Below the pieces are notes generated by a model. The model worked only from the letters and a program-made list of their open reading frames with translations, was not told the DNA's origin and did no database searches. 34,938 bases of DNA from Thermoanaerobaculia bacterium (GTDB lineage: Bacteria; Acidobacteriota; Thermoanaerobaculia; Multivoradales; JAIOJS01). The DNA lies in assembly GCA_019911795.1 (NCBI GenBank), contig JAIOJS010000183.1, positions 1-34,938 of the forward strand, written 5' to 3'. Made by a program: the position numbers and the translations under genes. Shown here piece by piece: positions 2,217 to 32,652 of this stretch. Numbering within the stretch: position 1 is the first letter of the stretch; each line of letters opens with the position of its first letter.

Positions 2217-2249
2217 AGCCCCCAGCCGAGACCGGTTGGGGGCTTTTTT
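2217..2249 (+). terminator. Intrinsic terminator / attenuator hairpin in the ilv leader
   Basis: AGCCCCCAGCCG-AGAC-CGGTTGGGGGCT followed by TTTTT: 12-bp stem (one G-U), 4-nt loop, U tract, 28 nt upstream of the ilvE ATG. Confidence 0.85.
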
Positions 2250-2277
2250 CGTTTTCGGAGAGATAAAGGAGTCGAAG

Positions 2278-3222
2278 ATGAAAGAGACAGCAGAGTGGTG
2301 TTGGATGGATGGTAGTTGGGTTCGCTGGCCGGAGGCGTCGGTCCACATATCGACGCACGCCTTGCACTACGGATCCAGCGTGTTCGAAGGGATCCGCGCC
2401 TACGAACAGCCCGAGGGCACGGCGGTGTTCAGACTCGGCTGCCATATGAAGCGGTTGATGAACTCCTGCCGATTGGCCCGGATGGTCCCGGAGAGCGTGT
2501 CGGCGGAGGAGATCGAACAAGCCTGTTTGGAACTCATCGAACGCAATCGCCACGGAAGCTGCTACCTACGACCGCTGATTCACCGTGGTGCGGGCGGTCT
2601 CGGGCTGGATCCGACGGGGCTACCGATCCAGGTGTCGATCCTCTCGTTCGAGTGGGGGGCATACCTTGGGGCCGACGCTCTGGATCAGGGGGTCGATGTG
2701 ATGATCAGCTCCTGGCGTCGCGCCGCACCGGATGCGATGGTGGCGATGGCGAAGATCGGTGGTCAGTACGTCGTCAACTCCCTGGTCAGCGTCGAGGCCA
2801 AGCAAAACGGGTACCACGAGGGAATCCTGCTCAACCACGCCGGCTATGTCTCGGAGGGAGCAGGAGAGAACGTGTTCGCCGTCTACGACGGTGTGCTGGT
2901 GACGCCGCCGGTCTCAGCTTCGATTCTCAGCGGAATCACCCGGCATACGGTGATGACCTTGGCCCGTGATCTTGGGATCACGGTGCGCGAGGAACGCCTG
3001 ACCCGGGACCGCCTGTGCATTGCCGACGAACTCTTCATGACCGGTACGGCAGCTGAAGTGACTCCGATTCGGAGTGTGGACCGCAGCCCCATCGGGATGG
3101 GGAACGTTGGCCCCTTGACCCGGCGACTACAGGTCGAGTTCTTCGACCTGGTCCACGGTCGTCTGGCGGATCGGCACAACTGGCTCCGCCCGGTTCCTCA
3201 GTTCGAGGCGTCGGTCGTCTAG
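2278..3222 (+). CDS. ilvE: Branched-chain amino acid aminotransferase
   Basis: MKETAEWCWMDGSWVRWPEASVHISTHALHYGSSVFEGIRAYE...; class IV aminotransferase motifs; RBS AAGGAG upstream of ATG 2278. The longer ORF start (TTG 2236) lies inside the terminator. Confidence 0.95.
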   Translation: MKETAEWCWMDGSWVRWPEASVHISTHALHYGSSVFEGIRAYEQPEGTAVFRLGCHMKRLMNSCRLARMVPESVSAEEIEQACLELIERNRHGSCYLRPLIHRGAGGLGLDPTGLPIQVSILSFEWGAYLGADALDQGVDVMISSWRRAAPDAMVAMAKIGGQYVVNSLVSVEAKQNGYHEGILLNHAGYVSEGAGENVFAVYDGVLVTPPVSASILSGITRHTVMTLARDLGITVREERLTRDRLCIADELFMTGTAAEVTPIRSVDRSPIGMGNVGPLTRRLQVEFFDLVHGRLADRHNWLRPVPQFEASVV

Positions 3223-3278
3223 AGGGCTTGAAGGATGCGAATACGAGCGAACACGCAACATCTATTGGAGAAAACATC

Positions 3279-5057
3279 ATGGCAAATGAATCGACGAGGG
3301 TGAGTGATTCGGCCCGCGCCGCGGGTCAACCAGAGGGGGGGCGAGAGCTGACCGGGGCCGAGATCGTCTGCGCTTGCCTCCAGCGCGAAGGAGTCGATGT
3401 CGTCTTCGGCTATCCCGGGGGCGCCATTCTTCCCACCTACGATGCCCTGTGCCGATCGGGCGGTATCCACCATGTCTTGACTCGTCACGAGCAGGGAGCG
3501 AGCCATATGGCCGACGGTTACGCACGAAGCAGTGGAAGGGTCGGAGTCGCTATCGCCACGAGTGGCCCGGGGGCGACTAATCTGGTGACCGGCATTGCCA
3601 CCGCGATGATGGACTCGTCGCCACTGGTCTGCCTTACCGGTCAGGTGTCGACAACGGTCCTCGGTTCGGACGCCTTTCAGGAGGCCGACGTGCTGGGTAT
3701 CACCATGCCGATTACAAAGCACAACGTTATGGTCACGAGGGTCGAGGACCTGGCTGAGATCCTCCACGAGGCATTCGCCATCGCGCGGAGCGGCCGCCCG
3801 GGTCCGGTCGTGGTCGACCTTCCGAAGGACGTTCAGCTGGCTCGGACTCTCTACGATCCAGACCGGCCCCTGCCGGTCGTCCCAGTGAAGACCTCCATGA
3901 CGCCTCTCGATGCGGAGATAGAAGCAGCCCGAAATCTGATCGCAGAGGCCCGACGGCCGGTGATCCTCGCCGGGAACGGGATCAACATCTCAGGCGCCTC
4001 GGAGCAGTTGCGACGACTGGCTGAGGACACGGGCATTCCGGTATCGCTCACGCTACTGGGCAAGGGGGCGTTTCCCGAAGACCATCCACTCTCCCTCGGG
4101 ATGATGGGGATGCACGGCGACGCCGCGGCCAATCTCGCCATTCAAGCCGCCGATCTCATCATCGCCCTGGGGATGCGCTTCGACGATCGAGTGACGGGGA
4201 CCCTTTCGACCTACGCACCGAAATCCAAGAAGATCCACGTCGATCTCGATCGTTCCGAAATCGGCAAGAACGTCGCGGTGGACGTCGGTGTTGTGGGCGA
4301 TCTCAAAGCCGTTCTGACTCGTCTGCTAGTGGGCATCGCCGCCACGGTTGACGAAGGCTGGACGGCACAGATCCGTGAGTGGAAGGACCACAGCAAGACG
4401 CTCGATGTCGTCCATCAGCCGTGTGATGGACGGCTCTGGGCGGCTCGAGTGATTCGCGACCTCTGCGAGCTTACGGATGGAGAGGCCGTTACCGTAACCG
4501 ATGTCGGACAACACCAAATGTTCGAGGCTCAGTACTACACTCATCGGCGCCCGAGGACCCTGATCACCAGCGGTGGGCTCGGAACCATGGGGTTCGGCCT
4601 TCCTGCCGCGCTCGGCGCCAAGCTCGCACAACCCCACGAAGAGGTTTGGGCCATCGTCGGTGACGGTGGGTTTCAGATGACGCTGGCGGAGTTGGCTACC
4701 GCCGTTCAGGAGCAGATCGCGGTCAAGATCGCGATCATCAACAACGGCTACCTGGGAATGGTCCGTCAGTGGCAAGAGCTCTTCTACGAGGAGCGTTACT
4801 ACGCGACGCCGCTCGCCAACCCTGACTTCTGCAAGATCGCCGAGGCCTATGGTGTACCGTCGGTCCGTGTTTCGCAGCGTCGGGATGTCGCTCCCGCCGT
4901 GGCCTGGTGCCGCTCGGTAAACGACGGTCCCTGCCTGGTGGAGTTCGTGGTCGAATCACACGACGTGGTCTACCCGATGGTTCCCGCAGGAGCCGCTCTC
5001 GACGAAATGATTCGGCGACCGGCGCGGGCTTCGACGATGGCCGGGGTGTCGCGATGA
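3279..5057 (+). CDS. ilvB: Acetolactate synthase large subunit
   Basis: GADVVFGYPGGAILP-type ThDP enzyme (GVDVVFGYPGGAILPTYDAL...HEQGASHMADGYARSSGRVGVAIATSGPGATNLVTGI...GDGGFQMTLAELATAVQ); RBS TTGGAG upstream of ATG 3279. Confidence 0.95.
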   Translation: MANESTRVSDSARAAGQPEGGRELTGAEIVCACLQREGVDVVFGYPGGAILPTYDALCRSGGIHHVLTRHEQGASHMADGYARSSGRVGVAIATSGPGATNLVTGIATAMMDSSPLVCLTGQVSTTVLGSDAFQEADVLGITMPITKHNVMVTRVEDLAEILHEAFAIARSGRPGPVVVDLPKDVQLARTLYDPDRPLPVVPVKTSMTPLDAEIEAARNLIAEARRPVILAGNGINISGASEQLRRLAEDTGIPVSLTLLGKGAFPEDHPLSLGMMGMHGDAAANLAIQAADLIIALGMRFDDRVTGTLSTYAPKSKKIHVDLDRSEIGKNVAVDVGVVGDLKAVLTRLLVGIAATVDEGWTAQIREWKDHSKTLDVVHQPCDGRLWAARVIRDLCELTDGEAVTVTDVGQHQMFEAQYYTHRRPRTLITSGGLGTMGFGLPAALGAKLAQPHEEVWAIVGDGGFQMTLAELATAVQEQIAVKIAIINNGYLGMVRQWQELFYEERYYATPLANPDFCKIAEAYGVPSVRVSQRRDVAPAVAWCRSVNDGPCLVEFVVESHDVVYPMVPAGAALDEMIRRPARASTMAGVSR

Positions 5058-5668
5058 CACCGGCACCGAATGCCGAGATGAGCGGATCGCAGACGAGCGG
5101 GTCGCAGACTTTGATCGCTCTGGTCGAGAACCGACCCGGGGTGCTGAATCGGGTGACGACGCTTCTTCGACGTCGGCACTTCGACCTTCTGACCCTGTCG
5201 ATGGGGAGGAGTGAAGATCCAGACCGTAGTCGATTGACGTTGACGGTGGGCGGAGGCTCCGCGGGCGCCCGCCGGGTCGCCGATCACTTGATCAAATTGG
5301 TCGAGGTGCTCCACGTCGAACCGCTCTTCGACCAACCCGCGGTACGTCGCGATCTCGCCCTCATCAAGATCAGGCCAGATGCGGCCGAACTGCCCGCAGT
5401 CAACGCCCTCTGTTCGGCCTTTCGGGCCAGAATCGTCGACGTTTCACCGGGCTCGACGATCGTAGAGATCACCGGTGAACAGTCCAAGATCGAGCGCTTT
5501 GTCGCCCTCCTGACTCCCTACGGACTGGCCGAGCTAGCCCGGTCGGAATGCGTAGCGATGTGCCGTGGAGCGTCGGGCTTCGGCGCCAGCGATCACTCCG
5601 TAGGCCAGACCACAAGCCAGACCACAAGCCAGACCACGAGCTCGACCAGTCCAAATCCAACTTCATAG
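5054..5668 (+). CDS. ilvN: Acetolactate synthase small (regulatory) subunit, ACT domain
   Basis: [37 protein letters not shown]...; ATGA overlap with the ilvB stop. Confidence 0.9.
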
Positions 5669-5699
5669 AACAAGCTTCACTCTCGAAAAGGAACATTCC

Positions 5700-6740
5700 A
5701 TGGCCTCCATCTACTACGAAAAAGACACTTCCCTCCAACCTCTGCGTGACGTCACCGTGGCCGTGATCGGCTACGGCAGCCAGGGGCGAGCCCATGCTCT
5801 CAACCTGCGCGATTCCGGGATCGATGTCGTCGTTGGGTTGCGACGCGATAGCGCTAGCTGGCAGACGGCGGAAGCCGACGGGCTGGCCGTCGACACCGTT
5901 GCAGGAGCAACCCAGCGAGGGCAGGTCGTGATGATCCTGGTTCCGGATCCGGCACAGCCCGCGGTTTTCGCGGAGGGGGTCGAACCTCACCTCGAGGTCG
6001 GGGATCTCCTGCTCTTTGCCCACGGATTCAATATCCACTTTGGAGGGTTGGCCTGCCCCCCCGGCATCGATGTTGGGTTGGTGGCTCCCAAGGCGCCGGG
6101 TCACCGTGTGCGAGAGGTTTTCGTCGCAGGACAGGGAACTCCTGGTCTGATCGCCGTCGCCCAGGATGCCACGGGTTCGGCCCACGGAAGAATCCTCTCG
6201 TACGCCCATGCGATCGGTTGCACTCGCGCCGGGGTCATCGAAACGACCTTCGCGGAGGAGACCGAGACCGACCTCTTCGGTGAGCAGGTCGTTCTTTGCG
6301 GGGGTGTCACGGCGCTCGTTCGAGGCGGCTTCGAGACCTTGGTCGAAGCTGGCTACCAGCCGGAGGTGGCGTACTTCGAGTGCCTGCATGAGCTCAAGTT
6401 GATCGTCGATCTGATGTATCGAGGTGGTCTGAAGGCGATGTGGCACAGCGTGTCCGACACGGCCGAGCACGGTGGGTACGAAGGTGGAGATCGACTGGTT
6501 ACAGCGGAGACGCGAGAGGAGATGCGACACATCCTGGCCGATATACAGGCAGGGAGATACGCCGAGCGCTGGGTGGCGGAGTACGCAGCTGGGTCCAAGG
6601 AACTCCTCCGGCGGCGGGATGAGGAGAGCCGACACCCGATCGAGTCGGTGGGGGCTACCCTCCGTTCGATGATCTCCTTCCTCGGTAAGGCATCCCGCGT
6701 CGATGAGCAAACTGTATCCTCCGTAGGGAGTGCTCGGTGA
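5700..6740 (+). CDS. ilvC: Ketol-acid reductoisomerase (class I length)
   Basis: [32 protein letters not shown]...[24 protein letters not shown]...; 346 aa. Confidence 0.95.
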
Positions 6741-8482
6741 GTGTCGAGTCCCAGGAGACCAGTCACTCGGCCAGCGCGGTTGGGCAATCGGTGGACCAAG
6801 CGACAGGGGCTGGCCCCCTCAACCGCTACAGTCGGCGGTTGACCGAACCTCCGTCTCAGGGCGGTTCACAGGCGATGCTCCAGGCAACCGGTTTGCCCCG
6901 TCGCCAACTCGGTCTGCCGCAAGTGGGTATCGCTAGCGTCTGGTACGAGGGAAACCCGTGCAACATGCATCTCGGTGACCTGGCGGCTGAGGTCAAGGAC
7001 GGAGTGGAGGCGGCTGACCTGATCGGCATGCGCTTCAACACCATCGGCGTTAGCGACGGGATCTCGATGGGCACCGACGGGATGAGCTACTCGCTGCCTT
7101 CGCGTGATCTGATCGCCGATTCGGTGGAGATGGTGATGCGAGCCCACTACTACGATGGCATCGTCGCGCTCCCGGGCTGCGACAAGAACCTCCCGGGCTG
7201 CCTGATCGCGTTGGCCCGTCTCGATCGTCCCGGACTGATCGTCTACGGGGGGACCATCCGGCCCGGTTGCTTGAACGGGAAGGTCCTCGACGTGGTATCG
7301 GCCTTCCAGAGTTACGGTGAGTTCGTGGCGGGGACGATCGACGACGAAGAGCGGCAGCGAATCGTCGCCCACGCATGCCCCGGTGCCGGTGCTTGTGGGG
7401 GTATGTACACGGCCAACACGATGGCTCTGGCCATCGAAGCCCTTGGCATGAGTCTGCCGGGGAGCGCTTCGACCCCGGCCGAGGATCCGGCCAAGGTCGA
7501 GGAATGTCAACGAGCCGGCGCGACGCTGCACAGACTGCTGGTTCAGAACCTGACGCCGCGACAGATCCTGACGCGAACCGCGTTCGACAACGCCCTCACT
7601 GCGATCGTCGCAGTCGGTGGTTCGACCAACGCCGTGCTCCATCTGATCGCTATCGCACGGGCCGTCGGCATCGAGTTGACGCTCGATGACATCCAGGCGG
7701 TGAGCGATCGCACCCCGCTCCTGGGTGATTTCAAACCGAGCGGTCGGTTTGTCATGGCGGATCTGCATGAGGTCGGTGGCAGTCCGGCCCTGCTTCGACA
7801 CCTCCTCGACGCGGGTCTTCTGCACGGCGATTGCCTGACGGTGACCGGTGAGACGTTGGCCGACAACCTCGAACGCTACCCACGGTTGGCCGCCGGCCAA
7901 GAAGTGGTGCGTCCGATCTCGCAACCACTCAAGGCGACGGGGCATCTGCAGATCCTTCGCGGGAATCTGGCGCCGGAGGGTGCCGTGGCCAAGATCACCG
8001 GCAAGGAGGGTCTTCGCTTCAGCGGGCCGGCGCGTGTCTTCGATTCCGAAGAGGAGATGCTCGAGGGGCTTGCACTGGGCCAGATCGAGGCGGGAGACGT
8101 CGTGGTTATTCGCTATGAAGGTCCCAAAGGTGGGCCGGGTATGCCGGAGATGTTGACGCCGACCTCGGCCCTGGTCGGAGCTGGCCTGGGTGGTTCGGTT
8201 GCGCTCCTCACCGACGGTCGTTTCTCCGGAGGGTCGCACGGTTTCATCATCGGTCACGTGACGCCGGAGGCACAGGAGGGAGGGCCGATCGCCCTCGTGC
8301 AGAACGGAGATCGCATCACCCTCGACGCCGTCGAGCGTTCGATCACGCATCACGTCTCGGTGGAAGAGTTGGTAGAACGGCGCTCGCTCTGGCGACCGCG
8401 TGAACTACAACTCTCTGGAGCCCTGGCTCGCTACGTCAAGTGCGTAAGCTCGGCCAGTCTTGGCTGTGTGACGGACGAATGA
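6737..8482 (+). CDS. ilvD: Dihydroxy-acid dehydratase
   Basis: GTG start overlapping the ilvC stop; ...[48 protein letters not shown]...[13 protein letters not shown]... Confidence 0.95.
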
Positions 8483-9549
8483 GCGAGGAAGGAGGCCCTA
8501 GAGACGACGAGGGTCCCGTACCCGGGGACTACGTCGAGAGGATCCTCACGGCCCGCGTTTACGACGTCGCCATCGAGAGTCCGTTGGACCGCGGGGAGGG
8601 ACTCTCGAAGCGACTAGAGAACTCGGTCTGGCTCAAGCGTGAAGACCTGCAGCCGACCCATTCGTTCAAGTGCCGCGGCGCGTACAATGCCGTGGCCCTA
8701 CGATTGGAGCGAGCCGGCCCCGACGGCAACCTCACGGCGGTGATCGCCGCTTCGGCGGGGAATCATGCTCAGGGCGTGGCCCTGGCGGCAAAACGCCTGG
8801 GGCTCCACGCGATCCTGGTCATGCCAGAGGGGACGCCCCGGATCAAGGTACAGGCGGTGGCGGCGCTCGGATCCGAGGTGATCCTTGCTGGTGACAACTT
8901 CGACGCAGCGGCGCAGCGGGCGCGAGAGCTAGCCGAAGACCTTGGATATCCGCTGATCCACCCCTTCGACGACCCCGATATCATCGCCGGCCAGGGCACG
9001 ATCGGATTGGAACTCTGCCGCCAGCACCCCAACCCGATTCATGCCCTGTTCGTGCCAGTGGGTGGCGGCGGCCTCTTGGCTGGAATCGCCGTCCTGCTCA
9101 AACGACTGCGTCCTGGGATTCGGATCGTCGGAGTGGAGCCCCAGGACTCCGATGCGATGGCTCGATCGCTGCGAGCGGGCCGCCAGGTGCGGCTAGATCA
9201 TGTTGGAAAGTTTGCGGACGGAGTTGCGGTCAAGGAGGTCGGGCGCGAACCCTTCGAACTCTGCCGCCAGTTTGTCGATCAGGTCGTCGTTGTCAGTGCA
9301 GACGAGATCTGCGCGGCGATGAAACACATATTCGACGACACGCGCGTGGTGATGGAACCCGCTGGGGCTTTGGCCATGGCGGGTCTCGAACGATATGTTT
9401 CCGAGACCGGATGCCGTGGTGAGACGCTCGTGGCGATCACGAGCGGATCCAACCTAGAGTTCGACCTCTTGGGCTACGTCGCCGGGCGGGTGGAAGTCGG
9501 CATGGCAAGTTTGCGCGGCGGCACTCCGAGGGGAGTTCCAGCCTCGTGA
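8479..9549 (+). CDS. ilvA: Threonine ammonia-lyase, catalytic (PLP) domain only
   Basis: ATGA overlap with ilv[47 protein letters not shown] motifs; ends about 30 aa after the PLP domain with no ACT-like C-terminus. Confidence 0.9.
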
Positions 9550-12890: not shown

Positions 12891-13805
12891 ATGACGTACT
12901 CGATTCTTCGCTTGTTCATTCGAACCCATCTGGCTCTGGCTCGCCCGCTGGGCATCGCCTTGCTTGCCACGATCACCCTCGTCGGCCCGTCGCGCGCCGA
13001 AATTCGTTTCATCCCGATGGAGCCAGAAGCGGTCCAGACCATGTTGACGCCAGCCGCTCCGATCCAAGCCGCTCCCGAAGCCCTGGTCGGGCCTGGGACG
13101 ACACTCCTGCTCCCCTACTTCCAGATCGAACCCGGCCTGGACCCGAACACGACTCACATCGGAATCCGCAACGTGTCGCTGCTGAGCGACACCACGGTCA
13201 GCATCGCTTACTACAGTAGGGCCGGCAACCTATCGACGATCGAGGTCGGGGTGATGATCCCAGCCGCTGGGGTATACACCCGAAATCTGAAGCACGTAGC
13301 CGGTCTGCCGGCCGATCCTGATGGGATCAAGCGCGGGTATGCCATCGTCTCCGGACCTGATCCGATCTCGGGAGAGTACTTCCAACTGGATCCGCAAAAC
13401 GCCTTTGCCACGGGCAGCCGGATGGTCGCCAACGGCGAACTCTGCTTCATCTCCGACGCTCGATTCATCCTGGGTGGCCCGTTCACTGGCGGAACGCGAT
13501 TTCAGCTCTACGTCGACAATCCCCTGGGAATTCAGGTAGGTGATCCGCCATCAGCCAGCTTTACGATCGCCAACGAGGCCGGCACCATCTATGGAACGGT
13601 CGGACTGCAAACGGATCAGGTCGTCAACGACTTCGCCATCGGAGACGTCCTGGGCGCCTTGCCCGGAGGCGTGGGGCCCAGCTTCGGATCCGTGCTGGCG
13701 ATCCACTCGGCCTCGGCCGGCTACGGATTAATGACCGTCACCTACTCAGCTCTCGGTCAGTATTCAGTAGGGATGTCGGGGAGTTGTCAGACGCCGGCGC
13801 CTTGA
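12891..13805 (+). CDS. Secreted/exported beta-rich protein of unknown function
   Basis: RBS AGGAGG before ATG 12891; signal peptide (HLALARPLGIALLATITLVGPSRAE); LLPYFQIEPGLDPNTTHIGIRNVSLLSDTTVSIAYYS. Confidence 0.8.
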   Translation: MTYSILRLFIRTHLALARPLGIALLATITLVGPSRAEIRFIPMEPEAVQTMLTPAAPIQAAPEALVGPGTTLLLPYFQIEPGLDPNTTHIGIRNVSLLSDTTVSIAYYSRAGNLSTIEVGVMIPAAGVYTRNLKHVAGLPADPDGIKRGYAIVSGPDPISGEYFQLDPQNAFATGSRMVANGELCFISDARFILGGPFTGGTRFQLYVDNPLGIQVGDPPSASFTIANEAGTIYGTVGLQTDQVVNDFAIGDVLGALPGGVGPSFGSVLAIHSASAGYGLMTVTYSALGQYSVGMSGSCQTPAP

Positions 13806-14019
13806 ACCGGGGACCCGAGAAGGGGCTGGTCCACGCGGTCCAGCTCCTTCACCCCACGGCTTCACTACCGAACGGCGACCAAGCCTCTATACCGACAACG
13901 ATACTCGGGCGAGTTCGGCCGCCAGGAAGCGCGCCAGCGACGAGCGTCCAGGAACGGCCAGTGCTGACCTGGTGAGCATTTCGGTGCCACTAGAACTGCG
14001 GCGAGAGCGCCTGTCAGGT

Positions 14020-16941
14020 CTACAGGCGGTAGGCGAAGAGGTACTTGTCGTCGCCGAGAAAATACAACCGATCCCCTACTACCAGAAGGAACTCGACTCT
14101 CCGGGTGGTTTCCAGCCGCCAGCGTTCCTCGCCTGAGTCGCGCTCTACGGCATAGAGATGCCGATCGTGACTGCCGAAGAGAACGAGTTCTGCGTAGGTG
14201 GCGATCTCAGTGAGGGCTCGGTTGGCAGTATGAAAGCGCCAGAGTTCTCTTCCGGTCGCAGCGTCCAGCGAGTAGACGTTGTAGTCACCGCTTCCGAAGA
14301 AGACTCGATTCTCCATCACCAGGGGTCGATACCAGATGTCCTCGCCGCCGGTGTTGAAAGTCCAACGGCGGGCGCCGGTATCGACGTCTACCGCCAGGAG
14401 GTCCCCATGGGAGGTGCCGAAGATCGCCGTGTTGCCGAAACCAACTCCGTCGCTGACGACGCACTCTCCGGCATGGGTCTTCCACAGGGCCTTTCCGTTT
14501 GGGATTCCCAAGGCCCAAATCGATTCGCCGCAGCTACCGACAACGACCCGATCCTTCAGAATCAGAGCCCCGCCGTTGATGAAGAGCTCGGTCAGTGTGC
14601 TCCAGAGGAGTTCGCCGCTTTGGCGATCGATCGCGTTCAGTCGGCCGAGGCGGTCCCCGAGATAGATTCGATCACCGGAGGCGACCGGCAGAGCCGATGT
14701 TTCGGCTCCCAGTTGACTCCGCCAAAGCTCGGCGCCGGACTGGGGGTCGAGGGCCCTGAGGGTGCCTTGGCGACTGCCGGCAACGACGCGGTCAGTGGCA
14801 AATACCGGCGCACTGGCGAAGCCATCCGCAACTGCGACGGTCCACAGCGGATCGCCACGTTCGGCATCGAAAGCCAGCACGCTGTCTTCCGTCGTGACGA
14901 AAAGGTTCCCATCGGCGAATCTGACCCTCGTTGGTGAGTGAATCTCGCGCTTCCAGAGAAGCTTCGGCCCAGTACCACTGGCCACTAGCCGGGGTGCCCC
15001 TGGATCAGGCCATTCGGCAGGATCGAAACGCGTGGCCGGACCGCTCGAAGGAAGCGCGTAGATCACTCCGTCGAGGCTGGCGAAGATCAGGAGCCCATCG
15101 AGAAGCAGCGGACGGTCGACCACCCATCCTCCGGTGGGAAAGTGCCAGAGCTCGGTACCGCTGACTAGATCGATAGCGTAGAGATTCTGATCGAGGCTAC
15201 CTACGAACAGACGATCTCCATCGATCGTGGGCCTTGATCCGATCGCGTCACGAGCCGTAAACGTCCAGAGGAGAGTGCCGTCCACCGCGTCCAGGGCCAG
15301 GATGCGACCGTCGCCGGTGCCTTGGTAAAGAACGCCGTGGTGGAGCAACGGAGCGATCCCGAGACGCGATTCGAGGGAACGACGCCACCGCTCGGTACCA
15401 TCTCGAGCCAGGCGGTAGAGAAATCCCCGGCTGGTGGCTACGAAGCTGTCACCCTCAGCGGTAAGTGCGACTCCGGCCACCGCGGAATCGACCGCCACGC
15501 GTGTTTCGGCGCGGCCCGTGGCCAGATCGATGAGAATGACTTCGCCACGGTCGGTCCCGACCAGTGCTCTATTCTCGGCCACTGAGATTGGGACGTGAGC
15601 CTCTCCTTCGGTGGAGACTCGCCACCGGGTTTCGCCGTCTCGAGGATCCAAACCGTAGACGTGCTGATCGAAGGACCCGACGACGAGAGTCTCGGGACCG
15701 ACCCAGCTGTAGGCCAGGGGAGAGGTCAACGGCAGCCTTCGGCGCCACAGCTCCGACCCAGTCGTCGTATCGATAGCGGCCGCATAGTCGTAGGTGGCGA
15801 GGTAGGCCACCGCTCCCGCGACCTGCACCGCATCGCGCACCGCTCCCGGGGCCTGATATCGCCAGAGTTCGGCTCCGGTACCGGATTCCAGCGCATAGAG
15901 GTAGTGATCGTCCGAGCCGACGAGCAAACCAGCCTCGAATGGAGTGGGATCGGACCAAACCTCCCCGCCGGTGCGTACTCGCCATCCCTCCCCCTCGTCT
16001 TGGAGCGGGGACGGTACTTTATCGAGGTCCGCACTCGGCGTATCTCGACGTGGGTCCGCGTGGACCAGATTGAGGGTAATTCGACGGGACAGTCTCCGTT
16101 CGGCGCCCAGGCTGTCGCGTACGTCGTCTTCGAGGACCCCGGCCCACAGATGTCGATCTCGGCGGCGATCGATCAACTGGCTACTCAGCCTCGCCCGACC
16201 GGTAGGGGAAAAAGAGAGGGTTCCTTCGAGAAAGGCCTCGGCCCCGAGTTGGCGGGCGATCTCGGTTGCGGGTAGTCCCGCCCGAGCGAGTTCGAAGACC
16301 GTCGACCGTGAGGACACGCCGAACTCACCCGAGGCGGCGAGCTCTGCCGTCAGGGTGTCGGTCAACGCATCCGCGAAGAGCTGATGGACGGGGTCGTCGG
16401 AGAGGGCCTCGATGGGTAGCACCACGATGGAATGTGGCCAGGACGAGTCTTCGGCCACCCGCCCGCCACGGACCCACCAGAACATCCCAACCAGTAGCAT
16501 CGCGACGACGAGCCCTAGTAGGGGCCGGAGAAGCTTGCGGGGCGGATCGAACACCGCATCTTGTTCGGGCGGGATGGAGGACTCCACACCCCCCATATCG
16601 GTTGCCGCCTCGAACGGCTCTACCGGCGCGACGAGACCGTATCCCTTCCGCGGAATCGTCTTGATGTACTGTGGCTCGCGGGCGTGGTCTCCGAGTGCGC
16701 GGCGGAGTTCCCACACCGCGTTGGTCAAGACTTCATCGGTGATGAAGGTGTCGCGCCAGACGCTGTCGAGGATCTCCTGCCGGAGGTGGATACGACTGGG
16801 CTCGGACGCGAGAAAAACGAGCACTTCCATCAGTTTCGGCTCGAGGTTCGAGGTCTCCCCCTCCCGCACGATGCAGTTCTCGCGCGGACGAACCGTCCAG
16901 TCACCCAAGAGAAACGGGGAGTCGTCCGAGACTTTCATCAC
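14020..16941 (-). CDS. CadC-like one-pass transmembrane transcriptional regulator: OmpR/PhoB winged helix, TM, TolB-like domain, tandem PQQ beta-propellers
   Basis: N-term FLLGDWTVRPRENCIVREGETSNLEPKLMEVLVFLASEPSRIHLRQEILDSVWRDTFITDEVLTNAVWELRRALGD...YIKTIPRKGYGL (Trans_reg_C); TM LLRPLLGLVVAMLLVGMFWWV; many LFVGSLDQNLYAIDLVSGTELWHF-type blades. Confidence 0.92.
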   Translation of the reverse strand: MMKVSDDSPFLLGDWTVRPRENCIVREGETSNLEPKLMEVLVFLASEPSRIHLRQEILDSVWRDTFITDEVLTNAVWELRRALGDHAREPQYIKTIPRKGYGLVAPVEPFEAATDMGGVESSIPPEQDAVFDPPRKLLRPLLGLVVAMLLVGMFWWVRGGRVAEDSSWPHSIVVLPIEALSDDPVHQLFADALTDTLTAELAASGEFGVSSRSTVFELARAGLPATEIARQLGAEAFLEGTLSFSPTGRARLSSQLIDRRRDRHLWAGVLEDDVRDSLGAERRLSRRITLNLVHADPRRDTPSADLDKVPSPLQDEGEGWRVRTGGEVWSDPTPFEAGLLVGSDDHYLYALESGTGAELWRYQAPGAVRDAVQVAGAVAYLATYDYAAAIDTTTGSELWRRRLPLTSPLAYSWVGPETLVVGSFDQHVYGLDPRDGETRWRVSTEGEAHVPISVAENRALVGTDRGEVILIDLATGRAETRVAVDSAVAGVALTAEGDSFVATSRGFLYRLARDGTERWRRSLESRLGIAPLLHHGVLYQGTGDGRILALDAVDGTLLWTFTARDAIGSRPTIDGDRLFVGSLDQNLYAIDLVSGTELWHFPTGGWVVDRPLLLDGLLIFASLDGVIYALPSSGPATRFDPAEWPDPGAPRLVASGTGPKLLWKREIHSPTRVRFADGNLFVTTEDSVLAFDAERGDPLWTVAVADGFASAPVFATDRVVAGSRQGTLRALDPQSGAELWRSQLGAETSALPVASGDRIYLGDRLGRLNAIDRQSGELLWSTLTELFINGGALILKDRVVVGSCGESIWALGIPNGKALWKTHAGECVVSDGVGFGNTAIFGTSHGDLLAVDVDTGARRWTFNTGGEDIWYRPLVMENRVFFGSGDYNVYSLDAATGRELWRFHTANRALTEIATYAELVLFGSHDRHLYAVERDSGEERWRLETTRRVEFLLVVGDRLYFLGDDKYLFAYRL

Positions 16942-19558: not shown

Positions 19559-20419
19559 TCAGACGAAGCGCATACGCACGACCCCCGCCGCCAACAGCGA
19601 CAGGACCAGTAGCGCTAGGCCGATCTGAGACAGAGTCGGGATGCCCACGATTCCGAGGATGCTGGGATCAAGGTCTCCGGAAAGTTGGTGGTCGAGACAG
19701 GCTTCCAGTTCTGTCTGCCAGGGGGCGTCGGCCCTGTGGTCATACTCCTCGTAAGACAACGTGCCGTTGGCGTCCACTTCGATCCGTTCCACGTTCCCCG
19801 TGCCGGCCGCAGGGTAGAGGTCCACGAATTCCTCCAGAAAGTAGACCCGGCTGAAGCCGTCAGGGCTGTGGAAGCAGCCCGTGTCGAAGTAGCCAAAGCT
19901 CGAATTGGGAAGGGTCGAGGAGATTTCAGGAATCAACTCAAAGAGCGATCTCACGATAGGAGTGTTGTAGCGACCGTCGAACTGGAAATAAGCCAAGGTT
20001 CCGGCGCTGAAGAAGTTGATAGAGAACACATCGAGCAGCTCGGTTAGGCAGTTGATGGATTCGTTCTGGCCGTTCTCTGCAGCGTCATGAGCTGCCTGGT
20101 CAACGAACACTATAAGCACGTCCTCGGGAATGGCCATCCCCCGATAGACGCTCCACAAGTCCAGCTCCGGCAGTTGCTGCGCGGCTCGGTCCAGGTCCGC
20201 ATGGATCCGGTTGTAGAGAGGCCCCTCGGCGACCAGAACGTCCGAGTACCAGAGCGCCATGAGCTCGGCCGATCTGTCGGCGCGCGGCGAGGCTGCGAAG
20301 TCGGCTGAGTTCACGAGATCGGCGGCGGCGAGGCAGGCTGCGGGTTGCGCGTGAAGATGCGACGGAGTCGCAACGATCAGTCCGAGCAGGCCGAGGAGAC
20401 AAGAGACGGGACGGTACAT
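19559..20419 (-). CDS. Secreted protein with C-terminal IPTL-CTERM-like sorting signal
   Basis: Signal peptide MYRPVSCLLGLLGLIVATPSHLHAQ; C-terminus IPTLSQIGLALLVLSLLAAGVVRMRFV. Confidence 0.85.
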   Translation of the reverse strand: MYRPVSCLLGLLGLIVATPSHLHAQPAACLAAADLVNSADFAASPRADRSAELMALWYSDVLVAEGPLYNRIHADLDRAAQQLPELDLWSVYRGMAIPEDVLIVFVDQAAHDAAENGQNESINCLTELLDVFSINFFSAGTLAYFQFDGRYNTPIVRSLFELIPEISSTLPNSSFGYFDTGCFHSPDGFSRVYFLEEFVDLYPAAGTGNVERIEVDANGTLSYEEYDHRADAPWQTELEACLDHQLSGDLDPSILGIVGIPTLSQIGLALLVLSLLAAGVVRMRFV

Positions 20420-20563: not shown

Positions 20564-22123
20564 TCAGGGCGGCGACTCGAGCAACGGCTTCTCCGACAGG
20601 TAGATGAGGAGGGTACCCGGCACCACCTGGTGGCTCTTGGGCGGGTTGATGATCTCCTTACCGGACGGTGAACGCAGCCCGATGACCAAGCCACCTCGCT
20701 GAGTCAGCTGCATCTTGACGAGGAGATCGCCGAACCTCACCGGCTCGCTCGGCGCGTCCGGAATCTCACCCAAGTAGACATTGTGCGCCCCCGAGATCAG
20801 GACCCGGCTCATGGTGAGCGCGGTGCCGTGAAAGCCGACGGCATGGGCGATCATCGAATAGCCGATCTTGCGGGTCTCGATAACCTCGTCCGCCCCCGCG
20901 GAGCTGGCGTGCCCGACGTTCTCGGCGTCCAGGATCTCGGCCACCAAGTAAAGCGGGCGAAACCGTTGACGAACCTTCTTGCCATGCCGTCGCAAGTAGG
21001 AGCGGATCGTAAAGGTGATCAAGATGGTCCTGGCATCGGCGGCCTGCGGGCTCATGTCTCGGGCTCCGGACACGATCACCGCCGCGGCGTGGGTCAGTCG
21101 AACCTTGTCGAGTTCGCTCTCCTTGGTCGGATCACCTTGCACCCAAAGGTAGAGCGGCGGCAGGTCCCGAGGCCGCTCGTGGTCGTCGAAGACAACCACA
21201 CGGGTTTCCGTGGGATCGACCTCCTTCTCCAACGCGGTCAACAGGAGGGCGGTGCTCTCATCGTGGCCACAGACCACCACGTGGTTTACGTAGTCGCTCA
21301 TTCGAAATTGCTCCTCACGGATGCTCAACATACCTCGCACCAGGCTGGTCCCCACGACTCCCGCGAACAGGGCCAAGGACAACATGCCGGCCATCATCAG
21401 GACACCGCCGATAATGCGGCCCAGGAATGTCACGGGAGTGATGTCACCGTAGCCTACCGTGGTTACGGTGACGAGCGCCCACCACATGCCGTCGACGACC
21501 GACCCGATGTCCGGATTGGTCTTGATCTCGACGAAATAGAAACTGACGCCGCCGAGCAGGGTCGCCAATCCGAACACGCTGAAGGCAAAGGCGAAGAGAA
21601 GGCCGTTCTCTTCCAGCGCGTGAATCACGATGGCAAACGGATTGTGATATCTGAAAACCTTGCTGGTACGTAAGAGCCGTAGCAGACGTAGAGCCCGTAG
21701 GCCGCGTAGCCCCGGAAACAGGGCGAGGACGGCCAGCATGTCCACCAACTGGAGGGGACGTAGGGCAAAGCTCAGACGGGCCATAAAATGTTCGCGCAAT
21801 CGCCGGATTCGAGCCCGCCGGAAGACCTCGAGGGACGGGGGCCGGTAGGTCACGATCCGTATCACGATCTCCACGGCGAACACCTTCAGCAGGATACGGT
21901 CGATCCATCCCACGATCGGGATGGCGCTGCTGCCATCGGGCAGGAGGGCCTCGACTGCGAGGGACACGATGGACAGGACGATAAGGGTCCAAACCGAACC
22001 CTGAACGATGCGATAGATCCGCGTTCGGGGCTCGTGGAAGGCCGCGTGCAGGTGGGCGAGCAATCGAGTCACGATCTCCATCATACGTCCCCAGCTCACT
22101 CGGAGCCCTGGCGCCCGAGCCAT
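20564..22123 (-). CDS. Voltage-gated-type potassium channel with cytosolic RCK (TrkA-N/TrkA-C) domain
   Basis: S4-like RGLRALRLLRLLRTSKVFRYHN, selectivity filter TVTTVGYGDITP, then HVVVCGHDESTALLLTALEKE Rossmann start. The start may be internal at MMEIVTRL (22084). Confidence 0.9.
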   Translation of the reverse strand: MARAPGLRVSWGRMMEIVTRLLAHLHAAFHEPRTRIYRIVQGSVWTLIVLSIVSLAVEALLPDGSSAIPIVGWIDRILLKVFAVEIVIRIVTYRPPSLEVFRRARIRRLREHFMARLSFALRPLQLVDMLAVLALFPGLRGLRALRLLRLLRTSKVFRYHNPFAIVIHALEENGLLFAFAFSVFGLATLLGGVSFYFVEIKTNPDIGSVVDGMWWALVTVTTVGYGDITPVTFLGRIIGGVLMMAGMLSLALFAGVVGTSLVRGMLSIREEQFRMSDYVNHVVVCGHDESTALLLTALEKEVDPTETRVVVFDDHERPRDLPPLYLWVQGDPTKESELDKVRLTHAAAVIVSGARDMSPQAADARTILITFTIRSYLRRHGKKVRQRFRPLYLVAEILDAENVGHASSAGADEVIETRKIGYSMIAHAVGFHGTALTMSRVLISGAHNVYLGEIPDAPSEPVRFGDLLVKMQLTQRGGLVIGLRSPSGKEIINPPKSHQVVPGTLLIYLSEKPLLESPP

Positions 22124-22370: not shown

Positions 22371-23807
22371 TCAACGTGACGTGGTCGATGGGGACCGTTT
22401 CGAGATTCGGTAGTGTTCCTTGCGCAGCCCGTAGGACCGCATCTTGTTGTAGAGAGTACGGGGGTTGACTCCAGCCACCTCGGCAACCTCGTCCACCCGC
22501 CCGCGATAGCTCTGCAGCAGGCGGTGGAGGTAGTCCCGTTCGAAGGCTTCGACCACCCTTTGGCGCGCCTCCGCGAGCGGTGTGTTGGTAAGTCCTGGCG
22601 ATGGGAGAACTGTGTGGCCCGCGGCAAGTTCTCGTTGAGCGGGGATTTGGTGCAGGAGATCGGTGGCCTCGATTCGGTCTCCTTCGGCCAGCAAGACGCC
22701 CCGCTCGACTGCATTGATGAGCTCTCTTACATTGCCTGGCCAGAGATGTTGCTCCAACGCGTGCAGGCTCTCCTCCGAGAACCCATCGAGGCGCGGTCGA
22801 CCGAGACGATTCTTGAAGTGATCAAGATAGGCGCTGACCAGCGGCCTCACGTCCTCACGGCGTTCGCGGAGGGGAGGGATCTGCAGCATGACAACGCTCA
22901 ATCGGTAGAAGAGGTCACGACGAAACTCCCCTCGGTCCAAGGCACCGTGCAGGTCCTGGTTGGTCGCAGCGATGATCCGGACATCGAGCGGTACTGGGCG
23001 TTCCGCTCCGAGTCTCTGAATCTCACGTTCTTGCAACGCGCGCAGGAGTTTGGCCTGAAGGTGGATGGGCATGTCTCCGACTTCATCGAGAAACAGCGTG
23101 CCGCGATGGGCTAGTTCGAATGCCCCGCGTCGAGCACGAACTGCTCCCGTGAAAGCCCCCGCCTCATGGCCGAACAGTTCGGACTCCATAAGCGACTCAG
23201 GGACGGCCGCGCAGTTGACTGCGACGAAGGGGCCAGCGGACCGCGGGCTCTGATCGTGAACCCTACGAGCGAGCCATTCCTTGCCCACACCCGTCTCGCC
23301 GAGAATCAGGAGGGTAGTGTCGGCGGCGGCAACACGGGTGGCAAGGTCCAGCAGTCTTTGCATTGCAGGGCTCTTGGTTGCCCCCTCCAGAATCGAAACG
23401 CGATCCTCCTGGGTCGCCCGAAATCGAGATAGAGCGAGTTCCCGGAAGCGCCGCAGCACCGTTCGCAGGCTTGCTTCCCAGCCCTCGGGTTCGAGGTCCG
23501 AGTGAAGCACCGCGAAGGCTCCGGCGGCGTGCAGCAATACTCGATCCTGAGGTCGGTCTCCATCGACGATGCCAACGACCTCGGTTTGCTCGGGAGAGGA
23601 GCGAACTCTCGGAAGGGTCGATCTCCAAGGATCAGGAAGATCGGCTGCCGTGACAACGAGCAGATCAAAGCCCCCCTGTTCGAGCTGTTCCCAGAGGGAC
23701 TCGTCGAGTCGACCCTCCGTCACGTGAGTTCCAGCCTTCTTGATCCCCCGAGAGACACGATCACGCAGTGCTTTCGGCTCGATCCACACTAGGGCTCTGA
23801 GCAGCAT
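22371..23807 (-). CDS. Sigma54-dependent enhancer-binding protein (NtrC family) with degenerate receiver-like N-terminus and Fis-type HTH
   Basis: [16 protein letters not shown] (Walker A), [15 protein letters not shown] (sigma54 contact), [10 protein letters not shown] (Walker B), WPGNVREL, C-term [34 protein letters not shown]. Confidence 0.95.
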
Positions 23808-23819
23808 CGCGAGCCTCCT

Positions 23820-23885
23820 TTTCGGTAATTCTATACCGAAATATCAGTCTCGCAATACCGATAATGCGGCACTCTAATACCGATA
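23820..23885. promoter_or_regulatory. Three contiguous 22-bp operator-like units (TTTCGGTA-N6-TACCGAAA family)
   Basis: TTTCGGTAATTCTATACCGAAA (perfect 8-bp inverted repeat), TATCAGTCTCGCAATACCGATA, ATGCGGCACTCTAATACCGATA; ATACCGA recurs at 23833, 23855 and 23877. Confidence 0.8.
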
Positions 23886-23933: not shown

Positions 23934-23949
23934 TGGCACTCTCTTTGCT
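23934..23949 (+). promoter_or_regulatory. Sigma54 (-24/-12) promoter
   Basis: TGGCACTCTCTTTGCT matches TGGCAC-N5-TTGCW exactly; GG-N10-GC at 23935/23947. Confidence 0.8.
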
Positions 23950-24066: not shown

Positions 24067-24717
24067 GTGGAGTTGAAGAAAATGACCAATACATCCAAGA
24101 TTGCGTTGACGACCGTTGCAACCCTGGGGTTCGTTCTGTCAGGTTGTGCCAAGGCCCCGCAGGAAGAGATTTTGAAGAGCGAGTCAGCCCTCGAGTCCGC
24201 TCGCGGAGCGGACGCGGAGGAGTGGGCTGGCGAAGAATGGCAGCAGGCCGTCAACGCAAAAGCAGCACTCGACGAGGAACTGGCAACCCAGTCCGGCAAG
24301 ATGGGCATCATGCGGCGATACGACCGCACCAACGAGCTCGTAACCGAGGCGAACACCGCCGCCGCCGCCGCTCGTGAAGCTGCTCTCACCAACAAAGAGA
24401 CCGCTCGCGCCGAGGCGGCCGCTTCGATCGAGGTCGTGCAAGAGGTCCTCGCGACGGGCGACGATCTGGTAGAGCAGCTGACCGCTTGCCCAAAGAAGCC
24501 GAAGGGCTTCGAAGCTGACATGGTGATCATCACGGGGAATCTCACGGCTCTGCGCGGTGAGTTCACTAAGGTCCAGAGCCTGTTCGAAGCCGGGAGTTAC
24601 TCCGCCAGCATCGAAGAGGGCCACGCTCTAGTGGAGCAGATCGAAACCCTGACGGCCGACCTCGAAGGAGCGATGGAAAAGATCGGTTGTGAGCCAACCC
24701 AGGTTTCGACCATCTGA
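24067..24717 (+). CDS. Alpha-helical lipoprotein (DUF4398-like)
   Basis: Lipobox TTVATLGFVLSGC; Ala/Glu-rich helical body. GTG 24067 has RBS AAGGAG; ATG 24082 is an alternative start. Confidence 0.85.
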   Translation: MELKKMTNTSKIALTTVATLGFVLSGCAKAPQEEILKSESALESARGADAEEWAGEEWQQAVNAKAALDEELATQSGKMGIMRRYDRTNELVTEANTAAAAAREAALTNKETARAEAAASIEVVQEVLATGDDLVEQLTACPKKPKGFEADMVIITGNLTALRGEFTKVQSLFEAGSYSASIEEGHALVEQIETLTADLEGAMEKIGCEPTQVSTI

Positions 24718-24870: not shown

Positions 24871-25929
24871 ATGCTCTCCAACTCATCAACCACACTAGGG
24901 CTTCCCACTCTACTGACGTTCTGTTGGCTGACCCTTGCCGGCTGTGATCAGCGTCCCGTCGGCAATACGATGGCCTTCGACGCCACAGTTGTTCGAGTCT
25001 TGGATCAGCTCGAGGCACCGGACCTTCGCCAGCGCCTCGAAGGGTCCTGGCGCGAAGTCCAGCTCGCCGAAGCCGCCAGCCGGGGGCGTTGGCGACCTGA
25101 TCCGAAGGTCGAGGTTCTCTGGGCCTCGACGATGGCGGAGGCACGAGCCTGCTGGCTCGAAGGGGAACGACGACACCATCAGCTTCAGGAGGAGTGGTCC
25201 CAAGCGCGTCAACGTGCCGAGGATCTGCGCGCGCGGGCGGCGGGGCTCGGGCCCGACGTCTTGGAGGCTTCGTTCGTTTCCCTACAGAGATCGGCTGACA
25301 TCGCTTGGAACCGCGCGCTTCGCCGCCTGAGTGCCGACGATCTAGTGGGTGCCATTCAGGCCGCGGATGAGACCACGGTGAGTCTGGAACAGCTCGTCGC
25401 CGTGTGGGAATCGTCGAACTCGCGATTCTTCCGTTCCGACCTGAGACGTCATTGGGCCGGCATAGAGCAGTTGGCAATGGAGGACTCCCGTCGGGCCGGC
25501 GCGGCGCTGGTCGTCGACAAATATCAGCGGCGCCTTCACGTTTGGGAAGATGGAAAGAAGACCGGTAGCTACGCCATAGAACTGGGCCAACGCGGCCTCG
25601 AACGGAAGCTGGTCGCTGGCGACCGCGCAACCCCCGAAGGCAGGTATCGAGTCTCTGCGGTCAAGGGAGAAGGTAATACTCGCTACTTCCGGGCCCTCCT
25701 CTTGGACTACCCGAACGATGAGGATCGACAACGCCTGGCCGCCGCCGTTCGCAGTGGGATCGTTCCGCTGGGTTCATCGGCCGGAAGCCTCATCGAGATT
25801 CATGGTCATGGCGGCCGTGGCATGGACTGGACCGACGGGTGCATCGCCTTGAGTGACCAGGATATGGAGGCCCTCTGGTCAGTCGCGGCGGAGGGGCTTT
25901 CCGTCTCCATTGTGGGAGTACTTCCTTGA
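24871..25929 (+). CDS. L,D-transpeptidase (YkuD) lipoprotein
   Basis: Lipobox FCWLTLAGC; C-terminal IEIHGHGGRGMDWTDGCIALSDQDMEALW. Confidence 0.9.
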   Translation: MLSNSSTTLGLPTLLTFCWLTLAGCDQRPVGNTMAFDATVVRVLDQLEAPDLRQRLEGSWREVQLAEAASRGRWRPDPKVEVLWASTMAEARACWLEGERRHHQLQEEWSQARQRAEDLRARAAGLGPDVLEASFVSLQRSADIAWNRALRRLSADDLVGAIQAADETTVSLEQLVAVWESSNSRFFRSDLRRHWAGIEQLAMEDSRRAGAALVVDKYQRRLHVWEDGKKTGSYAIELGQRGLERKLVAGDRATPEGRYRVSAVKGEGNTRYFRALLLDYPNDEDRQRLAAAVRSGIVPLGSSAGSLIEIHGHGGRGMDWTDGCIALSDQDMEALWSVAAEGLSVSIVGVLP

Positions 25930-26627
25930 TACAAGTCGAAGATGGTCTCCTGAAGTCTCCGATCCCCGCCTCGGAGGTCGCTGTGTCCAGGCGCCGTGGC
26001 TGGGCCCTGGTTGTCGGCACTCTTACGTTGGGCTTACTGCTACTTCTCGTCTTCGGCTTGTGGGTTGCAGATCCGGGACTGGTGTACTTGGACACCGGGT
26101 TCATCGCCAACCCTGGAATCTCGGAGAGCGGCCAGACGGAGGGCGAAGCGCGAGCGAGCCGAGAACTCGAGTCTCTGGCTCCCCGGGGACGATTCGTCGT
26201 CATCGACAGCTTCGGAGGGACGCTAAGTGTCTACCAGGGCGAAGACCTCTTGCGCCAAGCAGTTAGCTCTGCGGGAAGCGGTTCTGCGTTGAGAGACCCC
26301 CGCAACGGAAAGTTCTGGGTCTTCGAGACTCCGATCGGCGAACATCGAGTGCAGCGGAAGGCGCGAGATCCAGTTTGGAACAAACCGGACTGGGCCTTCG
26401 TCGAAGAAGGCAGAGTTCCTCCCCCACTAGGCCATCCCGAGAGAGCAGATCGGATCTCTCTGGGCGACTATGCGCTGTACCTCGGGGACGGCTATCTCAT
26501 TCACGGCACTCTGTTTCAAACGACCCTCGGAAATCGCGTGACGCACGGCTGTGTTCGTCTCGGAGACCAGGATCTGGAGTGGCTCTTCAACAACGTTCCA
26601 GTGGGGAGTCGAGTATGGATCTACTAG
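25926..26627 (+). CDS. L,D-transpeptidase (YkuD), membrane anchored
   Basis: TM LVVGTLTLGLLLLLVFGLWVA; YLIHGTLFQTTLGNRVTHGCVRLGDQDLEWLF. TTG start overlaps the upstream stop; GTG 25982 is an alternative. Confidence 0.9.
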   Translation: MIQVEDGLLKSPIPASEVAVSRRRGWALVVGTLTLGLLLLLVFGLWVADPGLVYLDTGFIANPGISESGQTEGEARASRELESLAPRGRFVVIDSFGGTLSVYQGEDLLRQAVSSAGSGSALRDPRNGKFWVFETPIGEHRVQRKARDPVWNKPDWAFVEEGRVPPPLGHPERADRISLGDYALYLGDGYLIHGTLFQTTLGNRVTHGCVRLGDQDLEWLFNNVPVGSRVWIY

Positions 26628-27364
26628 AGAGCCATCAGGCGCGACTGGATCCGCCAAGTAGGAGGACTCCGGATCCGGACTCTGGCCCGCAGTCCCCCCG
26701 TCCATCCAGGGCCTTCCGTGGCCGTGGCGGACTCTGCCTATGGGTCCTAGTGATCGCTAGCCTCTGCACCAGGAGTGTTGGGGAGGCTCGACCGACCGAC
26801 GTACGATCCAACCTGTCGGCAACCGAGATCGAGTTGCAAGTCGCCCAAGCGGCTTTCCCGTACCTGGTTCTCGATCTGGCATCGAATACGATGGCGATCC
26901 GCATGAAGGGCCGGACGCTCGAGGTCATTCCCCTGCAGGGCCATCGATTGCTGAGAGCCGGTCGGCTAACGGCAACCCGGCAGCCCCTCGAGTTGCCAGC
27001 CCTCTGGCACGTGATCAAGCGCCCCCCCTCTCGACGCAAGGTGACCGCCCCTGCGACCCTGAGCGCGACGGAGAACCCCTTGGACCCACCACCGGCGGCC
27101 GCTGGGGAGACCCCACCACCCCCTGACGTCTACGACTTCGAGACCCATCAAGGTTGGACGGTCGAGATTGGCCGCGAGTTAATCGAACCCACCCGAGTTC
27201 AACTCTGGCGCCAGGCTCTGACGGATGGCTGGGCGACACGACGCGGCAAGATTCGCTCGCGGCCCGATCGACTGGTACTAGAGATGTCGCCCGAGTCGGC
27301 CACCCGACTCCACCATCTAATCCGTCCCGACATACCGATTCTGATCCTAGCCACGGCCCCTTGA
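26615..27364 (+). CDS. Exported/membrane-anchored companion protein of the L,D-transpeptidase operon, unknown function
   Basis: ATG 26615 overlaps the LDT stop; hydrophobic segment GLCLWVLVIASLCTRSVGEA; FPYLVLDLASNTMAIRMKGRTLEVIPLQGHRLL. Confidence 0.8.
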   Translation: MDLLESHQARLDPPSRRTPDPDSGPQSPRPSRAFRGRGGLCLWVLVIASLCTRSVGEARPTDVRSNLSATEIELQVAQAAFPYLVLDLASNTMAIRMKGRTLEVIPLQGHRLLRAGRLTATRQPLELPALWHVIKRPPSRRKVTAPATLSATENPLDPPPAAAGETPPPPDVYDFETHQGWTVEIGRELIEPTRVQLWRQALTDGWATRRGKIRSRPDRLVLEMSPESATRLHHLIRPDIPILILATAP

Positions 27365-31803: not shown

Positions 31804-32652
31804 TCAGTCGATCGGTGACAACAGCTCTGGATGGGTGACCAACGGACGGACTCCGTGGGCGTGGTCTTCCTCGAAGACGTTGCTCTGACACCAGCGACTG
31901 AGGCTGGTGATATCGAGCTGGGCGCACTGCGGCCGGACGCTCCAGGTGACCTGAAGCGGCGAACAATTCTGGTCGTCGTAGCTGGGTCCGGTGGTCGAAC
32001 CGCGAAAGACCACGGGCTCTCCCGTTCCGGCGGGGAGCGACTTGGCCTGATGATAGCCATCGACGACGGCCCCTGCGTCCATGGCACCGAAGGCCAGAGC
32101 CGAGGGGTCGTTGACCAAGGCAAAAACCTGGGCCTCGACCCGCAGATCGGGGTTGGCACAGCTGGCCGACAAACAGGCCCCCAGACCCACTCCGGGAGTT
32201 ACGTCGCAGGAGCTATAAACCCAGTGAACCTCGACGGTGTCGCCGGCTTCTACTCCGTGGCATGAGTTCTCTGACAATGGGGTCAGCACCTCTGCGGGCA
32301 GGGACGAGACGAGGTTGCACTGATAGCCGCCGCCTCGGCCGTCTTCACCACCCGCCGCCACCACCGAAAAGTCCCTGGCTCGGTGCTCAGCGCTGACATG
32401 GAAGTGGATGTTGCACAAGTTCATCCGGGTGGGTTCAGGTGCCAGCGAGAACCGTCGTGGGCTGGTGCCGGCGGGCTGGTCAATATCCCGCGGTGTCTGG
32501 GGTCCGAACCCCTCGCACACGCCGTCGACGGACACCGAAGCGTGATCGTCTCCCCCGCCCTCGGCCGTTGCCGTCGAAGCTAGAAAGACCACAGAGAGGA
32601 CGATGAATCGCTGCAACAGGTTCAAGACTATGTCTCCTAGGGTCGGGCTCAA
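31804..32652 (-). CDS. Delta-class carbonic anhydrase-like secreted protein
   Basis: Signal peptide; MNLCNIHFHVSAEHRA, GDTVEVHWVYSSCDVTPGVGLGACLS, NVFEEDHAHGVRPLVTHPELLSP, consistent with remembered bacterial delta-CA-like proteins. Needs a profile search. Confidence 0.65.
   Translation of the reverse strand: MSPTLGDIVLNLLQRFIVLSVVFLASTATAEGGGDDHASVSVDGVCEGFGPQTPRDIDQPAGTSPRRFSLAPEPTRMNLCNIHFHVSAEHRARDFSVVAAGGEDGRGGGYQCNLVSSLPAEVLTPLSENSCHGVEAGDTVEVHWVYSSCDVTPGVGLGACLSASCANPDLRVEAQVFALVNDPSALAFGAMDAGAVVDGYHQAKSLPAGTGEPVVFRGSTTGPSYDDQNCSPLQVTWSVRPQCAQLDITSLSRWCQSNVFEEDHAHGVRPLVTHPELLSPID

Follow-up and report, generated by a model that had tools for sequence, protein, structure and literature searches.

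An array of three abutting operators between a bEBP gene and a sigma-54 operon in a Thermoanaerobaculia bacterium, probably both enhancer and autorepression site

Genes of bEBPs, the activators of sigma-54 promoters, are commonly found divergent beside such promoters, as is the case for 6 of the 13 one-component EBPs of Desulfovibrio vulgaris (PMC4641369). In Escherichia coli, PspF bound to its enhancer at pspA activates this gene and represses its own expression (PMC3709507, citing Jovanovic et al., 1997). Also in E. coli, the divergent norR-norVW intergenic region carries three enhancer sites that are described as essential for activation and as a scaffold for a higher-order oligomer of NorR (PMC2941729, citing Tucker et al., 2010). 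GcsR of Pseudomonas aeruginosa has three 18-bp tandem palindromic sites 5' of the RpoN promoter of the gcs2 operon, each of them bound in EMSA (PMC4894688). We found nothing specific in the literature on a bEBP of the kind described below that is acidobacterial or linked to osmotic control.

We have analyzed a stretch of 34,938 nucleotides (the window) that makes up positions 1 to 34,938 of contig JAIOJS010000183.1 of a Thermoanaerobaculia bacterium (assembly GCA_019911795.1). A bEBP gene and a putative envelope operon diverge here from a region with three putative operators. The features, with promoters predicted by consensus match, are the following:

22371-23807, minus strand: bEBP, sigma-54 activator with a receiver-fold domain without phospho-acceptor Asp, an AAA+ domain with GAFTGA and a Fis-type HTH
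23820-23841, read on the plus strand: operator 1, perfect palindrome TTTCGGTA-ATTCTA-TACCGAAA, core TCGG-N10-CCGA at 23822-23839; spans the -10 of the bEBP promoter
23842-23863: operator 2, TATCAGTC-TCGCAA-TACCGATA, core at 23844-23861 (minus strand TCGG-TATTGCGAGA-CTGA); spans the -35 of the bEBP promoter
23864-23885: operator 3, ATGCGGCA-CTCTAA-TACCGATA, core at 23866-23883 (minus strand TCGG-TATTAGAGTG-CCGC)
23828-23855, minus strand: predicted sigma-70-like promoter of the bEBP gene, TTGCGA (23855-23850), 16-nt spacer, TAGAAT (23833-23828)
23934-23949, plus strand: predicted sigma-54 (-24/-12) promoter TGGCACTCTCTTTGCT, with a predicted transcription start at ~23960
24082-24717, plus strand: small lipoprotein, predicted first target gene, lipobox LSGC (MTNTSKIALTTVATLGFVLSGC...)
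24871-25929, plus strand: L,D-transpeptidase (YkuD), probable operon member
25926-26627, plus strand: second L,D-transpeptidase (YkuD), probable operon member
26375-27364, plus strand: open frame, probable operon member, whose true start is probably later; its relatives, at 33-35% identity, lie in the L010 and L016 neighbourhoods

Elsewhere in the window we found a voltage-gated K+-channel-like protein (Ion_trans and RCK; 20564-22123, minus strand), 3' of the bEBP gene and on the same strand, a protein with an IPTL-CTERM sorting signal (19559-20419, minus strand) and a protein that joins a CadC-like winged-helix N-terminus to BamB/PQQ-like beta-propeller repeats (14020-16941, minus strand). 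A branched-chain amino-acid cluster occupies 2236-9549 on the plus strand (class IV aminotransferase, TPP enzyme, ketol-acid reductoisomerase, dihydroxy-acid dehydratase and PLP enzyme), and at 31804-32652 on the minus strand there is a member of the delta carbonic anhydrase family (PF10563), which is known mainly from eukaryotic algae.

The regulator has the marks of the NtrC superfamily: an AAA+ sigma-54 interaction domain (PF00158, E=1.5e-69) with a GAFTGA loop (protein P0001) that is invariant in its relatives, a C-terminal Fis-type HTH (PF02954, E=4.9e-8), an adjoining -24/-12 promoter and a sigma-54 gene in its own genome (PF04552 match, 215 bits). No curated family model named this bEBP family at its cut-off. 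In the structure model, whose mean pLDDT is 84 over its whole length, the N-terminal 120 residues take up the (beta-alpha)5 fold of a receiver, and the best structure matches were 1ny5, 5m7p and 4l4u, then 8p53 (NtrC1 and NtrX, then FleQ). The conserved phospho-acceptor Asp that characterizes NtrC/NtrX response regulators is missing. At the end of beta-3 the acceptor position is a Thr in the window protein (FDLLVVT), and among the aligned relatives only L016 has kept the Asp; ordinary phosphorelay control is therefore unlikely. The bEBP probably reads some other signal, perhaps envelope or turgor stress, a guess suggested by the L,D-transpeptidase, MscS and cation-chloride cotransporter genes found as neighbours.

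The palindrome at 23820-23841 is perfect, with 8-bp arms about a 6-bp spacer, and is followed by two abutting 22-bp units with right half-sites TACCGATA and left half-sites that match at 5 of 8 positions each, all as the sequence-only reading had described. Between the palindrome and the ATG of the bEBP gene (23805-23807) there are 12 bases. By itself, a perfect 8-N6-8 palindrome is unremarkable, the window having three in all, and a match to this one with up to 3 mismatches was present in 6% of the shuffles. It is the equally spaced triple that is special: the 7-mer ATACCGA occurs three times at an exact 22-bp period and is the window's only triplet of this kind (0.05 expected). When scored with a matrix from which their own locus had been left out, the three window sites reached 16.0, 15.5 and 13.3 bits, the 99% null being 6.9, and because its score exceeds this null operator 3, one base off the strict pattern, is counted as real. 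Comparison of loci upheld the tandem triple but redrew the unit, which had been read as two 8-mers about N6 and is better described as a conserved 18-bp core, TCGG-N10-CCGA, in three copies at the exact 22-bp period. We also considered the ATACCGA repeats as direct half-sites every 22 bp and rejected this reading, since the orthologous sites are palindromic about N10, which fits dimer sites better.

Conservation near bEBP orthologues had been set beforehand as a test on which the proposal could fall, and it was found. We compared 15 bEBP relatives, from draft assemblies of the same order and of Planctomycetota and Gemmatimonadota (L040 and L041). In nine of them, one from Planctomycetota, the 100 bp leading up to the bEBP start contained the pattern TCRG-N10-CYGA, with 11 sites altogether. 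None of 2000 dinucleotide-shuffle sets reached nine loci (the maximum was three), although these shuffles overstate independence because the orthologues are few and related. Other spacers between TCRG and CYGA (4-18) gave at most two sites each. A divergent TGGCA-N6-TTGC sigma-54 promoter within 300 bp was present in 10 of the 15 relatives vs. 0.01 expected, and among nineteen other bEBPs neither the site nor the divergent sigma-54 promoter was found. The zero-gap triple itself is a feature of the window only: in the relatives there is either a single site or two sites, usually separated by 22-24 bp (22 in L014 and L019; 23 in L013, L015 and L016; 24 in L010). The second site of the pair scores weakly in L014, L015, L016 and L019, and in the last two it does not rise above the null.

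Both site and promoter are absent in five of the 15 relatives (L012, L017, L018, L021 and L039), and L041 has a half-site only. L012 and L017, of genus g16, are at 50-51% identity, and L017 and L018 have a similar HTH although operator and promoter are absent there. MscS channel genes lie near the bEBP relatives L018 (L126) and L041, the former neighbourhood also containing RimK-TrkA_C, zinc protease and AstE/AspA genes. When 396 genomes from across the phylum were searched, no orthologue turned up beyond those from the order.

Within the own genome (5.4 Mb) the palindrome alone was of little use to find a regulon: one exact copy and ten places with 2-3 mismatches make 11 places at up to 3 mismatches vs. 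six for the reversed control pattern, no useful excess, and none of the seven of these matches whose flanks were inspected had a sigma-54 promoter within 300 bp. We then have the composite pattern of an operator, 85-115 bp and a sigma-54 promoter, which in the own genome matched the window array only. In a blind scan of 72 genomes of the order it matched 22 places, of which six lie exactly at the bEBP genes compared here (G000, G002, G008, G027, G044 and G061), against 0 for the reversed control. Most of the other matches were in long open frames and were put down to chance, and a gap of 55-85 bp gave scattered matches, none at operator-bearing bEBP genes. One match, G010:C63:12635-12781 (locus L123, same coordinates), shares its contig with the L014 bEBP; its promoter faces an MscS gene (13712-14599), a probable second target of the regulon. 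The genes that accompany the bEBP vary among genomes: lipoprotein and L,D-transpeptidases, a coiled-coil protein with an SLC12 cotransporter and a PLP enzyme, or an Hsp20-like protein; therefore, the operator follows the regulator. Lipoprotein homologues beside the bEBP had both operator and sigma-54 promoter in three of three cases, and in eight genomes without a bEBP orthologue none of the homologues had either element within 600 bp (0/8).

Since the operators go with the bEBP rather than with the target, we consider the array to be very probably (roughly 0.87) the binding array of the bEBP, serving as enhancer of the lipoprotein/L,D-transpeptidase operon and as autorepression site. The presence of a chance palindrome in an A+T-richer intergenic stretch would agree with the three found, about the frequency at which they arise in 35 kb, but the period-22 triplet, the footprint and the leave-one-out scores refute this idea, to which we give practically no weight. 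An ordinary repressor operator of another regulator, with the bEBP binding elsewhere, would look much the same, as perfect 8-N6-8 palindromes resemble many repressor operators and sequence alone cannot show binding. However, the site accompanies the bEBP across genomes with differing partners, is absent at lipoprotein genes without bEBP, and no further DNA-binding gene was recognised beside the array, all of which makes this explanation improbable.

Somewhat less easily dismissed, though still unlikely, is that the bEBP binds the array in one role only, as an enhancer without meaningful autorepression or the reverse. An upstream activating sequence (UAS) need not repress a nearby promoter, and a sigma-70-like promoter with its -10 inside the operator was clear in only part of the relatives (L009, L011 and L016), the layout seen in the window being clear in L016 (TTGACT-17-TAGATT) and L011 and less so elsewhere. 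Against it, both core hexamers of the predicted bEBP promoter in the window fall inside operators, the -35 in operator 2 and the -10 in the perfect palindrome (TTGCGA-16-TAGAAT; one found, 0.3 expected). Besides, in all nine relatives the sites are within ~80 bp of the bEBP start while the divergent promoter is 140-260 bp off, leaving an enhancer free to sit anywhere between. On the other side, the predicted sigma-54 start has the operator centres ~86, 108 and 130 bp upstream of it, and 86-130 bp is a usual enhancer distance for bEBPs. Position thus supports the dual role, UAS for the opposite promoter plus autorepression, that had been suggested from the letters of the window.

Under the dual-role reading, dimers of the bEBP would bind TCGG-N10-CCGA through their Fis-type HTH, and the 22-bp spacing, about two helical turns, would place all the sites along the same side of the helix, where they could nucleate the AAA+ hexamer. 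Acting on sigma-54 RNA polymerase at the promoter at 23934-23949, this hexamer would turn on transcription of the lipoprotein/L,D-transpeptidase operon. Bound to these sites, the bEBP would also cover the -35 and -10 of its gene, so that it would limit its own synthesis. Physical binding, cooperativity and autorepression by the bEBP are what we infer from these patterns.

A wider interpretation, which we offer tentatively and hold at somewhat less than even odds, is that the bEBP and its TCGG-N10-CCGA array form a portable self-limiting cassette. The receiver-like domain would no longer be phosphorylated and would respond to an envelope or turgor signal, and the cassette would have become joined to various operons for the envelope and for ion homeostasis. 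Its range would be this order and Planctomycetota and, less clearly, the Gemmatimonadota draft genomes. If true, the operons so joined would be those for the lipoprotein and L,D-transpeptidases, MscS, the cation-chloride cotransporter and the Hsp20-like protein. For the bEBP family, the analysis provides an operator sequence, TCGG-N10-CCGA, and a candidate target operon, with a tie to L,D-transpeptidase cell-wall and ion-channel genes.

The arrangement resembles pspF-pspA in that a bEBP gene diverges from a sigma-54 envelope operon (an envelope-stress operon in E. coli), and in that putative enhancer sites, here operators 1 and 2, overlap the predicted promoter of the bEBP itself. It differs in having three abutting sites instead of the two UAS at pspA and another operator sequence; PspF is controlled by PspA, and no PspA-like partner was recognised at the window locus. 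To our knowledge, PspF has no N-terminal regulatory domain. With norR-norVW the locus shares a set of three sites, here putative enhancers, between divergent genes, with the difference that NorR senses NO through a GAF domain and uses another operator sequence. GcsR is also alike in its three tandem 18-bp sites upstream of a sigma-54 promoter, those of the window being homologous, known from sequence, at a 22-bp period and of 13-16 bits each; GcsR is a TyrR-like, glycine-responsive protein with the site TGTAACG-N4-CGTTCCG. In its fold and in the order of its domains, from receiver through AAA+ with GAFTGA to Fis HTH, the window protein follows the NtrC1/NtrX/FleQ-type bEBPs, from which it and most relatives differ by the loss of the phospho-acceptor Asp. 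By analogy, then, the proposed principle, an enhancer array combined with self-control by a divergent bEBP, is already known from E. coli. Distinctive here are the operator sequence, the receiver-like domain without Asp and, possibly, the envelope/ion theme, in what would be a compact natural case of a predicted activator-assembling enhancer that also holds the core promoter of the activator.
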